NCBI GenBank assembly: GCA_963921795.1
Contig: OY997645.1
Coordinates: 22,720,418-22,784,417 of the forward strand
DNA: 64,000 nt
Direction: 5' to 3'
From: Nannobrachium achirus
Taxonomy: Eukaryota > Chordata > Actinopteri > Myctophiformes > Myctophidae
Shown: piece by piece, positions 1 through 64,000 of the stretch
How the letters are laid out: every line of letters starts with the position of its first letter
How positions within the stretch are numbered: the stretch's first letter is position 1
Translations under genes and position numbers: made by a program
The notes under the pieces: model-generated
What the model was told of the DNA's origin: nothing
Database searches by the model: none
What the model saw: the letters and a program-made list of their open reading frames with translations, nothing else

Positions 1-185
1 CTTGTAGATCAGCTGTTTTCGGCCAACATAAAAACAGGAGGGGGCCTGGTATAGACTAGAGCAGAGGGGGAATTCAGTCAACTTACAGGCCTATTTAGGG
101 TTTTTAACCCATTTAGACTTGGAAAGCCTTTATGTTGTTATACCTTTCAATCCGGGACAGCGTCTGTGTCATTTTAGTTGTTACT

Positions 186-366
186 ATATATCGTCACTGT
201 CGGGCAGAAACCTCGTATGACAAGAATGTCACACAAAAGCAGTGAAAATAGCAGATCTACAAGCATTGTAGATCGGATATTTTCACCATTTTAAATCGTT
301 TTAAAAATTATAATAAAAACTGACCGGTTTTGGAAATACAAGGTTTCCGCCCGGCAAAAACAATAT
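186..366. mobile_element. CGTCACTGTCGGGCAGAAAC MITE, copy 1
   Basis: Left end TCGTCACTGTCGGGCAGAAA, right end ACAAGGTTTCCGCCCGGC (inverted). A palindrome copy at 241-287 lies in the centre. Confidence 0.6.
241..287. repeat. Palindrome-family copy (short)
   Basis: GTGAAAATAGCAGATCTACA pairs with TGTAGATCGGATATTTTCAC around a very short loop; the inner GC-rich part is missing. Confidence 0.75.
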
Positions 367-399
367 AGGGTGAAAAGTGACATCGCCCTAAATGTCTTG

Positions 400-850
400 G
401 CCATCTGGCCAGTGATGTATATTGAACCAGTTACCCGTATATGGAGGCCCCTGATACCCATATATGGAGATCCATGTTTATGTAGATATGCTGTGAGACC
501 CCAAACAGTTATTTGTTATTTGAAAGTCATATGACATCATACATACAATCCCTTTTATGCCCATATATGGAGATCCCTGTCTGTCTGTCATCCACACAGA
601 TATGGGCTGTCTTGGCCATCTGTCTTGGACCTATATGGATTCTGTTAGTGTGGTATGTGGCCGATGTGGACTCCATATATGGGCATTCCCATATGAAGTC
701 ATGTTAGATATGGGCTTAATATTGATGACATCAGGGATCTCCATATGAGGGCATAAAAGGGATTCTGTTAAGTGTGGTTCCCCTGACATCTCAGTGATGT
801 CAGAGCATCAAACTGAGCGGTATACAGAGAGGTGACACTGAGACGTTACA
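400..850. repeat. CCATATATGG-rich repeat block 1
   Basis: Exact CCATATATGG near 468, 560 and 671, in the contexts CCCATATATGGAGATCC and ATATATGGGCAT, with TTGATGACATCAGGGATC. Related blocks follow at 11.3, 17.6 and 53.7 kb. Confidence 0.7.
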
Positions 851-1370
851 CAGAGACAAGATGTGGCCGTTTTTATACTAAACTGTACAATCAAATATAT
901 ATATATATATATATATTTTTTTAACAATATGTTTATTTCCGTTTTTTTTATACATACAAAGCAACAACAAAAACAAAGCTCAGACAAAATAAACAAACAA
1001 AAAACCCCACAAAAAACAAAATCAAATATAATTTGAATAAAAAATATAGATTTTTCCAAAAACTTAGGTTAGGATTTAGAAGCCGTGTTTAGAATCAGCT
1101 TTAGGTCTACGTGGTTAAAGACCAAAGAGCTTATTTGCCAAACTGTATTGCTAGAGTAGGCCTTTTACTGTAGATGTGAGTGTGCTTGTGTCTTGCACCT
1201 CTGTTTGATATCTGCAGCCTTGTTTCTGTCTGCAGGGAGTCAGCAGCAGAACCTAATCACTGGTATAAAACACACTACTCAGGCCTTGAAACGGCATTGA
1301 CTCAGCTACAGTAAATGTATCCCCAGTTTACAACAGCACAGCATTTCTACATGCCCTTTCTTCATAAACA

Positions 1371-1668
1371 CACACACACACGCACGCACACACACACACA
1401 CACACACACACGCACGCACACACACACACACACACACACACACGCGCACACACACACACACACACGTACACACACACACACACTCCACACACACTCCACA
1501 CGCTCCACACGTAAGCAGGAACATACATTAACGCACCCCCGAGTGTCCATGCTGATTCTACATTCCCCATGCAATGTCACCCCCGGGTATGTCAGTGTGG
1601 GAGGCTGCGTCATCACACACACACACACACACACACACACACACACACACACACACACACACACACAC
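1371..1668. repeat. CA microsatellites
   Basis: CA tract with CGCA interruptions (1371-1500) and a pure CA tract (about 1613-1668), separated by unique sequence. Confidence 0.95.
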
Positions 1669-61320: not shown

Positions 61321-61487
61321 ATGGACTCGTGCCTTTCTGTCGCCACGCTGTCGTGTTTCTGATGGAAGTGGAACATCTCTGTATGTTCGATTATGTTTAC
61401 AATCTTAGCATGCGGGGCTGTATTTTTCCCCGGTCTTTTCATAACCTTGAGAAAAGTGTTCAGATCGACGTTTACACGCTGGAGTGA
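61321..61487 (+). promoter_or_regulatory. tlcd3: Two upstream ORFs before and across the tlcd3 start
   Basis: ATG 61321 opens a 13-codon ORF ending TGA 61360-61362. That stop overlaps a second ATG (TGATG) opening a 41-codon ORF in another frame, which ends at 61485-61487, inside the main CDS. If both lie in the mRNA they could limit translation from ATG 61393. Presence in the transcript is inferred. Confidence 0.4.
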
Positions 61488-61514
61488 TGCAGACGTGGTT
61501 TGCGTTAGTGAGAG
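61393..61514 (+). CDS. tlcd3: tlcd3 exon 1
   Basis: ATG 61393 to AG|GTAAGA at 61515, phase 2 out; ends RWSDADVVCVSER. The start is set by gap-free alignment to the human N-termini. Confidence 0.87.
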
Positions 61515-63507
61515 GTAAGACACGACGCACTATTACTTTTTGAATGACGTAGCATGATTTATCAGTGTGTGCGTATACATACATGTCGTACTAGTAAATT
61601 ACTAGTACATTTACTTAAGTAGGCTACTGTACAATCTGTACTTAAGTACAATTTTGAGGTATTTGTACTTTACAAATTGCATTTCCCAATTTACAAATTG
61701 CATTTCCCAATTTTGATTTATCAGTGGTGGAAAGTAACTAGTACATTTACTTAAGTAGGCTACTGTACAATCTGTACTTAAAGTACAATTTTGAGGTATT
61801 TGTAGGCCTACTTTACAAATTGCATTTCCCAATTTTCAGTACTTTTACTTCTACTCCACTAAATCTCAAAGGCAAATATTGTACTTTTACTAACTAGTTA
61901 CTTTGTATATTTTGATTATTACTTTATAAATGTTACAAAACATTCATAACCCACACACAGTAGACTGTTTCGGCCATTTGAAAATAGCAGATCTTGTAGA
62001 TCGGCTAGATATAGGCTATATATATAGCCTACATTTTGAACTTGTGAAATGGGACATTCTGCACAATGACTAGGGACATTCTGCACAATGACATTCTGCA
62101 CAATGACTAGGCCGAATTTACTTTTTGTACTTCATGTACATTTTCATACCAATACTTTTACTTTTACTCAAGTACATTTTTTATGCATGACATTTCTGTG
62201 ACGGAATATTTCTACATTGCAGTATTGATTATTTTACTTATTTTACTAACGTTTTGAGTACTTTTTTTTCCACCACTGTCTAATAATGTATTGAATCAAC
62301 TGATGGGTTGCCAACTATCTGAAATTTAAAGAAGGGAGTTGCCGATCTATAAGCTCGCAACGCGTCGCCTATCTTTGCAAAGAGTTGTAGATAGAGAAAG
62401 AAAACAACTCTGGTGACGTCTGGTCCAAAGTTTACCAAGCCTAAAGGGTTTAAAGTGGTTAACATACAACCTGTATTATATAATTATGTAAATTAGTTGT
62501 TTGAACTTGGAAGATGTGCGTCAGTGATTATTTAATTCAAAAAAAAAAAAAATAAGAAAGTATCCCTCATCAGTTCAATAAGGCATTGGTTCTCAAAGTC
62601 AGGTCCGGGGACCCCCAGGGGTCCTTGAGGGGGTCCCAATCTAAATGATTAGGAACCAAATGGACCTTTATGGGTATGTAACTCGGAGTGTGTACATTTG
62701 TACTCAAACTAACATTACCATAATTGTACTATATAAATTCTGGTCTAAGAGAAAGAAATGCCATTAAATGAGGGGTCCGTAGCATAATGCATGTCAAACT
62801 GGAGGTCCTTAAAATTAAAATGGTTGGGAATCACTGCTAGAGACGTAAAATTCTTCTCTTATATGGGGTCCTTGGCATATTATCTTTTCAAATGGGGGTC
62901 CGCAGGCTAATAAGTGTCAATTTGGGGGTCCTTGACATGAAGTTTGAGAACCACTGCAATAAGGGACACTTCTTAGGGACAATATTCTGTATTTCAAGGG
63001 ACGGTTGGCAACCCTACAAAATAAGTGTTTTCCCCCACTGACCACTGACCAGTCCATTATACAATGTTCAATTGTTAGGTTGGTTTCAGCCATCCATGCC
63101 TCTTTGGCGACCGCTGCTGGATTAGTTATCATTAGCTCCTGCAAGGATGTAATGACTGACAGGTAGGTCAACAGAATAGCATTACAGTAGTAGTTGTCTT
63201 ACCACTATTTCATGAATTTATATACATTTTTACAGGCTGCAGAAAAATCATAATTTAACATTTTTTCTGCCTTTTCACAACATCCAGACACTGGTTGGTC
63301 GATGCTTTCGTGTTATTTGGAGCTCCCTACATGGCTTATGACATCTTTGCCATGTACCTGAGCCACTACCATTTTCAGAAGGCCAAAGGCAATTATGATG
63401 GTGTGTGCAGTCATTCACTGCACACGGTGAAGAAGTTTGTCCGCAAGGAATGGCTATTAATTCTTCATCACCTGGTCCTGCTACTCATCTTCGTGCCCGC
63501 TGTTCTG
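61393..63507 (+). CDS. tlcd3: TLC-domain protein of the TLCD3 (FAM57) family, 5' part (whole visible gene)
   Basis: Three exons give 142 in-frame residues and the gene runs off the window. The start MFTILACGAVFFPGLFITL aligns without gaps to human TLCD3A (MLLTLAGGALFFPGLF) and TLCD3B. Later blocks SERLVSAIHASLAT, SSCKDVMTDRHWL, PYMAYDIFAMYL and LLILHHLVLLLIF match the family in order. Hydrophobic segments at about 2-18, 44-60, 72-90 and 120-141 fit the first helices of a multi-pass ER or plasma-membrane protein; the HH pair near residue 130 is the conserved TLC histidine site. TLCD3B has been reported as a ceramide synthase; TLCD3A is linked to lipid and amino-acid handling. Assignment to A or B is not possible from this part. 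Confidence 0.88.
61590..62279. mobile_element. CAGTGGTGGAAAGTA element with internal tandem duplication, tlcd3 intron 1
   Basis: CAGTGGTGGAAAGTAAC near 61722 and TTTTTTTCCACCACTG near 62277 are its ends. The stretch ACTAGTACATTTACTTAAGT through CATTTCCCAATT is present twice (about 61597-61715 and 61738-61836). A short palindrome copy is at 61979-62008. Confidence 0.6.
62336..62395. repeat. Palindrome-family copy (decayed), tlcd3 intron 1
   Basis: GTTGCCGATCTATAAGCTCG then CAACGCGTCGCC keeps the left arm; the right side is reduced to AGAGTTGTAGAT. Confidence 0.5.
62584..62956. mobile_element. CAGTGGTTCTCAAAC-type hAT element, nested
   Basis: TIRs CATTGGTTCTCAAA and TTTGAGAACCACTG; exact TSD CAATAAGG (62576-62583, 62957-62964). 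Its interior has several GGGGGTCC repeats. Confidence 0.88.
63079..63162 (+). CDS. tlcd3: tlcd3 exon 2
   Basis: Codes (R)LVSAIHASLATAAGLVIIS and SCKDVMTD; acceptor attgttag, donor AG|GTAGGT, phase 2 in and out. Confidence 0.88.
63288..63507 (+). CDS. tlcd3: tlcd3 exon 3
   Basis: Codes (R)HWLVDAFVLFGAPYMAYDI through KEWLLILHHLVLLLIFVPAV, ending phase 0 at CTG|gtgagg (63508). The following open sequence with RTHTHTH is intron plus CA repeat, not protein. Confidence 0.9.
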
Positions 63508-63585
63508 GTGAGGATGGATCTACTCCTCTCCATATCTCTCTCACAAACACAAGCGCGCGCGCGCACACACACACACACACACACT

Positions 63586-64000
63586 ACGTCTCACCCTACA
63601 GTACACCTGGTCATCTACAGATTTATGGAGCTATACTGTATATACAGATGTATGCTGGCAAGCTAGACACATTCTGTTCAGTGCAGCCTATGTTGTATAC
63701 ATTTTGTATTGGTGATTGTTACACTCTCATCTTTTGGATAGAAGATAAGTGATTGACTCTACTTTATTTGTCATCACATCTATATACTGTACAAGTATTC
63801 AGCGGGACAAGCTCCAGGATCTTAGTGCAACAAGCATTATGACAAGACAAAAAAAAATTATATATATATATATATATATATATATATATATATATATATA
63901 TAAATATAATATATAATCTTCTTTCTCACCTCTCATATCTGATTTAGTCATAGCAAGCTTTCTTTCTTTGTTTCTTTCCTGTTTGTGCTTTTTGTGTGTG
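63586..64000. repeat. Repeat shared with usp2 intron 8 (copy in tlcd3 intron 3)
   Basis: CTACGTCTCACCCTACAGTA, GGCAAGCTAGACAC, CCAGGATCTTAGTGCAACAA and TTTGTTTCTTTCCTGTTTGT. A TA repeat (63858-63901) is inserted. It runs off the window. Confidence 0.75.

Follow-up and report, generated by a model that had tools for sequence, protein, structure and literature searches.

A near-perfect palindrome abundant in Nannobrachium achirus, probably a hairpin module shared by several families of small DNA transposons

The window analysed here is a stretch of 64,000 bp from the genome of Nannobrachium achirus (Myctophidae; assembly GCA_963921795.1, 1.6585 Gb; contig OY997645.1, positions 22,720,418–22,784,417, designated G000:C8:22720418-22784417). 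A short, near-perfect palindrome recurs along its whole length. This palindrome is probably an internal hairpin module common to small DNA transposons, apparently non-autonomous, of several unrelated families: copies with a readable context lie inside small elements that have terminal inverted repeats (TIRs) of their own and belong to unrelated target-duplication types.

Abundance of the palindrome

The dense palindrome family reported by the initial annotation at about 23 places of the window is real. All 23 places were inspected, and 18 window loci were found at E < 1e-3 by each of two profiles, the first of which was built from 11 copies. All these loci were on the earlier list, with none beyond it, and the two profile sets differed by a single place (14489 with profile 1 only, 16215 with profile 2 only). 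The core 15-mer GATCTACAAGCTCAC, with up to two mismatches, matched the window 25 times, as compared to a mean of 0.13 in 100 shuffles (largest value 1); one of these matches, at position 31133, was outside the earlier list. The places 1, 27258, 57721, and 61979 failed both profiles, with E values from 0.013 to 0.19 in a window-only search. By eye, 57721 and 61979 resemble deleted copies, place 1 is truncated by the window edge, and 27258 is doubtful; about half of the listed places appeared centre-deleted, one-armed, or degenerate. In an inverted-repeat search, the window's three longest palindromes all proved to be copies of the family (at 50818, 31945, and 48653, with arms of 40–51 bp and 3 nt between them). 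Six whole hairpins (four from the window and two fetched), folded as single-stranded DNA, gave energies of −36.6 to −47.7 kcal/mol, with z-scores of −12 to −17.

The rest of the genome was sampled with 25 stretches of 10 kb taken at round coordinates (L017–L041, 243,658 non-N bases). Profile 2 detected 87 loci covering 2.1% of the bases and none in the reversed sequences. This corresponds to one copy per 2.8 kb, the very density first noted in the window. The scaled copy number is approximately 590,000, a rough figure with 0 to 12 copies per 10-kb stretch. The exact core 15-mer was present 171,869 times genome-wide (86,739 on one strand and 85,130 on the other) and its reversed pattern not once. 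At two places of another contig this 15-mer is repeated, as though an arm had turned into a tandem array, with a spacing of 37–43 bp at G000:C1:469826-469963 and of 22–26 bp at G000:C1:744594-744656.

The palindrome had not been recognised as a named family. Near-perfect palindromes are indeed what the copies are, and the lack of a name held within the sources consulted: the Rfam covariance models gave no match in the window at gathering score, and paper searches with stretches of the hairpin sequence returned no related paper, repeat libraries and subscription papers being outside their scope. Exact matches in viral contigs numbered zero in one search and eight in another, all eight with a single arm and no second arm nearby, and nothing in phage records matched the stretch 29400–30000.

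Structure of the hairpin unit

The intact unit spans AAAATAGC to GCTATTTT and measures 71 bp, including a loop of 3 nt. Typically it reads AAAATAGC-A-GATCTACAAGCTCACAACGC(C/G)TCGC, then the loop, then the complement. The inner stem had been given as "usually" ACGCGTCGC, which proved too strong: this exact form was found at only three places on the + strand and one on the − strand, and the alternatives ACGCCTCGC and GCGCGGCAC are present. The lengths were read from 71 loci with both edges readable, which fell into 27 flank groups with one representative each; 15 of the 27 representatives had a unit of exactly 71 bp, the other 12 ranging from 40 to 82 bp. Conservation was highest in the core columns and lowest in the outermost ones, and the AAAA beyond a supposed TA was as well conserved as the columns inside it.

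One site is frequently unpaired, an A in the left arm standing opposite a G (AGC[A]GATC/GATC[G]GCT). Among 72 loci, its state was A/G in 25, A/T in 25, C/G in 7, and something else in 15. The A/G state was seen in 3/3 copies of family C, 3/3 of B, 4/7 of D, 6/13 of A, and 1/8 of E (the families are described below). In family D, among the 50 matches listed, the letters at the polarity site were A,C in 24, A,A in 19, A,T in 5, and C,C in 2, and the A,A state may mark a subfamily. Again among the 50 listed, the loops AAC and GTT, which are reverse complements, occurred with the same A/C polarity in 7 and 6 of 22 hairpins, so that the centre could have been inverted once or more. A supposed core inversion in two family H copies was withdrawn, as their flanks show that the script had assigned the wrong orientation.

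Host transposons and nesting

Counting the copies and mapping them against transposons had been proposed from the outset. Host elements were tallied in 339,221 bases. When 96 loci were clustered by their flanks, more than 10 groups with repeated flanks emerged; the single duplicated stretch formed by L011 and L012 was entered as two in this clustering and in the edge and paired-change counts, and L014 and L015 have about 0.9 kb in common, both pairs lying outside the random sample. In the named families, the hairpin-bearing element has the layout of a miniature inverted-repeat transposable element (MITE), with TIRs and a target duplication around it. The hosts measure 189–738 bp and are too small for a transposase.

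Families B, C, D, and M combine 8-bp target duplications with hAT-like ends, and we take them to be hAT-derived from these ends and the duplication length; family K has one mismatch in its duplication. Complete elements were found for family C (ends TAGGGCTGTCAC) at window positions 31819–32231 and 50691–51124, for B (ends CAGGGGTGGAAA) at 20076–20455, for D (ends CAGTGGTTCTCAA) at L025:4667-5072, for M (ends TAGGGATGGGACG) at L025:3876-4287, and for K (ends CAGTGGTTCCCAA) at L034:7500-7719. The 8-bp duplications were CATTTACG, GTCCTGGA, and CATATGGA in the window, and GTCTAAGG and ATGTATGG elsewhere. Families H (L024 and L033, 214 bp) and Ei (L040:10-198 and L025:5826-6029) have TTAA next to the TIR at both ends and are presumably piggyBac-like by the TTAA rule. 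Family A has ends CGTCACTGTCGG and 4-bp duplications, ATAT or AAAT (L018, L036 twice, and L040).

Most complete elements contain the hairpin: 4/4 with A ends, 3/4 with C, 2/2 with M, 1/1 with B, 4/4 with E, 2/2 with H, 3/3 Ei pairings (two of which overlap in one stretch), and 2/2 with the ends of the element at 29390 described below. The exceptions were the D ends (1/5) and the K ends (2/4), whose end patterns overlap each other; by eye, two of the D elements scored as empty have a deleted hairpin inside.

When the hairpin was masked, the comparison of 17 host elements at E 0.01 revealed no match between families except E/Ei, which is due to nesting. Matches to the TTAA-type Ei were found within hAT-like elements of L013, L022, and L036, and family A lies within hAT-like elements at window 29390–29956, L040:3906-4383, and L019:658-1105; taken together, these three Ei and three family A nestings place carriers inside other transposons at six places. 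By eye, family M may retain part of a TTAA-type element. The idea that every hairpin sits in a TTAA carrier was not borne out, as none was seen in A, D, B, or K. In the sample, 18 of the 27 flank groups were single-copy, a few of them belonging to larger groups by eye. The possibility that the palindrome is merely the internal part of one transposon family was thus half borne out: it is internal to transposons, but the hosts are unrelated, being hAT-like, TTAA-type, and of the 4-bp-duplication kind.

Divergence and symmetry within families

Nine independent same-family pairs were retained from 25 with enough aligned sequence. The hairpin differed at 54 of 616 positions (8.8%) and the flanks at 153 of 1705 (9.0%), the core being the lower in five of the nine pairs. 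The two arms were then compared in the full-length family D hairpins, 42 among the 50 matches listed, all on contig C1 and some of them near-identical neighbours, obtained with a pattern in which 14 of the 15 outer positions per arm were fixed. Over 588 inner-stem cells, there were 39 one-sided changes, four double changes to different letters, and no double change to the same letter. In the sampled copies of families D, H, and E, the double changes numbered 1, 1, and 0 and the single ones 15, 23, and 9. Resident copies are not kept symmetric in these three families. An ongoing arm-to-arm correction is rejected inside D, H, and E on these counts and on the absence of double-same changes against 39 one-sided ones in D; in family A, where two subtypes are mixed, it may occur. 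The divergence of the hairpin matches that of the flanks and mostly affects one arm at a time, so inside families it behaves as a neutral passenger. Nothing here supports a function for the stem of resident copies, the core and flank divergence being equal within families and the arms decaying independently.

Symmetry between families

Between families, the situation was different. The counts of paired changes were compared to shuffles and are to be read with two reservations, namely that the alignments were fitted to the structure, which favours pairing, and that the shuffles ignore relatedness. With 73 loci, 182 paired double changes were observed, while in 300 shuffles the mean was 65 and the maximum 82; 55 doubles were unpaired. 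With one row per family (23 rows), 54 were paired against 20.4 (maximum 29) and 20 unpaired; inside the shared unit only, 24 were paired against 8.1 (maximum 15) and 6 unpaired. Variants present on both arms include CATG for CAAG in family D, GCACAC/GTGTGC in A, GTGG/CCAC in C, and GCGCGGCAC/GTGCCGCGC in H. The D variant with CATG on both arms was counted 6,680 times genome-wide, and its reversed control was absent. Several of the paired swaps, at columns 29/90, 33/86, and 43/76, are impossible via a G-T pair.

The symmetry extends into the flanks. In 58 loci, the two sides agreed at 0.71–0.73 over the first four positions, as compared to 0.35–0.36 between loci, and fell to background by 9–10 bp. 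With one locus per group, positions 1–8 gave 104 matches out of 216 where 66.2 were expected. The symmetrical letters are family-specific sequence and extend for about 8 bp at most. The median extension, when one mismatch was tolerated, was 5 in A, 6 in D, 6 in C, 3 in H, 4 in E, and 1 in K; one M copy reached 8, and copies of I reached 11 and 3.

Edges and candidate empty sites

No convincing direct repeat was found at the unit edges among the 27 representatives, at offsets 0–10 and lengths of 2, 3, 4, 5, and 8; the best of 605 combinations gave 4 against 0.54 expected. A TA step inside AAAATAGC fits a TA duplication, but is inseparable from the palindrome itself.

Short-gap places, where the two D flanks lie close together, numbered 166 genome-wide. 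The 100 that were listed showed many different junctions, mostly partial hairpins. Among them the junction GTGAAAATATTTTCAC recurs, its exact sequence being present at 99 genomic sites and the reversed pattern at one. Three origins could fit this junction: an old empty site whose host palindrome had TA in its middle, a remnant of excision, or the loss of sequence lying between two TA steps. Seven listed D places share the same centre deletion on one strand within about 1 Mb (G000:C10:10313656-11353175), which suggests local amplification. The sole family C element without a hairpin, at L033:5225-5541, has a duplication of its own (GAAGCGCT) and may be a deletion, because A- and T-rich letters are kept on both sides of the site. 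An ancestral empty site was also considered for the D copy at window 46808–47104 and rejected: the 17-mer at its junction is present twice in the genome, the second time (by eye) at a place without D flanks.

Copies and other features of the window

The copies are given here in order of position, on the + strand unless otherwise stated. A single hairpin arm at 1–22 (− strand, E 0.16, assigned by eye) is cut by the window edge. It is followed by a family A element at 191–356 with the TIR CGTCACTGTCGG... and a centre-deleted hairpin at 241–287, by a profile-detected hairpin copy at 2121–2188 with no host assigned, and by the left arm of a hairpin of the TTAA-type family H at 2736–2777, the remainder being deleted. 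A single arm found by profile at 4085–4116 directly adjoins a near-perfect palindrome of other sequence at 4120–4200; a second such palindrome is located at 13145–13232. The copy at 12415–12484 lacks the outer arms and has no host assigned, and the degenerate copy at 14482–14524 (− strand) was detected by profile 1 only, with an E value of 8.8e-5. A family A element of the A2 subtype with a shortened hairpin (16212–16258) occupies 16145–16343, a whole hairpin with no host assigned lies at 19050–19129, and the complete family B hAT-like element at 20076–20455 has the target duplication CATATGGA and a hairpin at 20148–20213. The weak one-armed copy at 27258–27301 is doubtful (E 0.013).

The composite hAT-like element at 29390–29956 has the TIR CAGGGACGTG and the target duplication ACTGCACT; the family A element nested inside it covers 29528–29799, with AAAT on both sides (by eye) and a hairpin at 29631–29723, whose left arm shows a 12-bp tandem duplication at 29641–29668. 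Another whole hairpin at 30369–30448 has no host assigned. In the family C hAT-like element at 31819–32231 (TIR TAGGGCTGTCAC, target duplication CATTTACG), the hairpin spans 31946–32026 and the unit 31951–32021. Beyond it are a hairpin with a damaged right arm and a left flank of family B type at 32430–32499, and a degenerate hairpin found by profile at 36897–36955 (− strand). The family D hAT-like element at 44128–44317 has CAGTGGTTCTCAACC ends and one hairpin arm (44195–44230), no 8-bp duplication being found around it. At 48654–48734 (− strand), a whole family D hairpin has the CATG variant on both arms and only one D flank. The second family C hAT-like element, at 50691–51124, has the target duplication GTCCTGGA and a hairpin at 50830–50910, and an A2-subtype family A element at 52172–52381 has its hairpin at 52260–52336. 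The last copies are a weak degenerate one at 57721–57778 (E 0.063), a centre-deleted one with a family B type flank at 61977–62012 (E 0.19), and a degenerate hairpin detected by profile at 62336–62392 (− strand).

An unrelated perfect inverted repeat with 33-bp arms and 8 nt between them is located at 38415–38488. Telomere-like GGTTAG arrays are present at window 11032–11261, well inside a long contig, and long AC/TG microsatellites are numerous throughout. Three open reading frames between 57162 and 60083 match the Pfam family AIG1 (GIMAP-type GTPases), with E values of 6e-7, 1.4e-4 (below the curated cut-off), and 4.3e-29.

Discussion

Host transposition multiplies the hairpin as a passenger, with no maintenance in resident copies. 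We propose that it reached several host families as a unit, through carriers, or the hairpin itself, becoming nested in other elements, and that it was then amplified by the founders of each family. A single source moving as a unit is suggested by the 71-bp length and the A/G site, which recur between hosts. To judge from the paired differences between families, symmetry would have been re-established or maintained until each founding and then lost to drift. The hairpin may have moved by transposition of its own, through nested carriers that lost their ends, or by capture with fold-back synthesis. A bolder version is tentative: a portable hairpin entering unrelated small transposons and founding or boosting families would be a selfish module parasitising transposons and making up about 2% of a vertebrate genome. 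Founding or boosting might result from fold-back during repair, making a deletion derivative, or from the ends being brought together.

Several observations weigh against a shared passenger module. So many carriers are not obviously accounted for by chance nesting. A share of the palindromes has no assigned host, and these could be solo insertions. None of the candidate places was established as a genuine pre-insertion site, the C copy that lacks the core and the 166 D short-gap places being explicable as deletions. The superfamily names are based on the ends and the duplication length only. In family A, where two subtypes are mixed, 17 double changes were counted against a shuffle mean of 7.0 (largest 11). 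Two window C copies (2/71 differences against 24/259), together with a cruder alignment, hinted at a slower divergence of the core, which was not upheld over the nine pairs.

It is possible, though we would not favour it, that the hairpin is itself a minimal transposon mobilised by some transposase, which landed in other small elements and was copied by them. The model for such an element is MADE1, a human mariner-type MITE of approximately 80 bp, nearly all inverted repeat with a tiny loop, which has TA duplications and conserved ends. The hairpin resembles MADE1 in size, in its near-total inverted repeat, and in its loop. The recurrence of the 71-bp unit and the A/G site across hosts, the 18 single-member flank groups, the family variants altered on both arms in the manner of subfamily terminal repeats, and the junction GTGAAAATATTTTCAC, which looks as though TA had been duplicated at the ends of an inner unit, are all consistent with this origin. 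MADE1 differs in its edges, as no convincing direct repeat was found at those of the hairpin, whose ends vary most: conservation is lowest in the outermost letters and highest in the inner ones, which is the opposite of a transposon end and of the terminal-base conservation of MADE1. The AAAA beyond the supposed TA equals the sequence inside in conservation, and the TA junction is also obtainable by deletion between two TA steps. A rather unlikely explanation gives the hairpin an active part in the birth of MITEs, a broken or stalled one-arm end folding back and priming, before it is joined, the copying of the arm and a few bases of the host flank, so that each family would start with a fresh symmetric hairpin. 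This would account for the symmetry in family-specific letters beyond the shared unit and for the paired changes between families (54 against 20.4), including swaps that could not have passed via G-T. However, arm copying should erase the A/G mismatch, which is kept in B, C, most of D, and part of A; inside D, H, and E there is no sign of copying from arm to arm, 20 double changes on the family rows are unpaired, and palindromic insertion targets could yield the same flank symmetry. Quasipalindrome correction, or template switching in replication, symmetrises imperfect hairpins in one step, unlike what was observed inside these three families.

That the palindrome is the native centre of one transposon family, seen as fragments, is improbable and already largely contradicted. 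Some hosts do contain nested carriers (E with Ei, and three hAT-like elements with family A), and M perhaps retains TTAA-type remains by eye, but there are three kinds of target duplication, the ends are unrelated in A, B, C, D/K, M, H, and Ei, and in A, B, C, D, and K the hairpin was not seen to lie in a carrier. The least credible reading, very improbable in our view, is a functional hairpin (a small RNA precursor or a protein-binding cruciform) under selection in resident copies. The strong folding energy and the paired changes between families would fit such a role; set against them are the equal divergence of core and flanks within families, the dominance of one-sided damage, the lack of an Rfam match in the window, and a number of about half a million copies.

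Among known systems, the Angel elements of teleosts are short inverted-repeat, abundant foldback elements of approximately 300 bp, for which snap-back synthesis was proposed. Compared by description only, they are similar to the hairpin as abundant fish foldback elements, but they are longer. Among the titles listed in searches for palindromic, nested, or chimeric MITEs, no title or opening of an abstract described such a hairpin, subscription papers being outside the scope of this search, and passages from an inverted-repeat survey covering 118,019 genomes (PMC13155455) held nothing relevant on fish. Short interspersed elements (SINEs) share highly conserved domains (HCDs), and the V domain is common to SINEs and the MITE MER6, where it is a SINE insert within this mariner-derived element (PMC6887750). 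This would be the closest published analogue. The likeness lies in a short central segment common to unrelated non-autonomous elements and spread by the transposition of its carriers; the present case differs in that the segment is a palindrome, with several kinds of DNA-transposon carriers, about half a million copies, and no constraint inside families (PMC6887750).

The presence of one hairpin in unrelated elements raises the question of how it entered so many. How MITEs are born, and what makes some of their families burst, has long been an open question. If uptake was repeated and founder copies were symmetric, the junctions would record founding events that are readable in assembled genomes, and the hairpin would be for DNA transposons what the shared central domains are for SINEs. 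Should it be no more than a MADE1-like element prone to nesting, its abundance would still be unusual.

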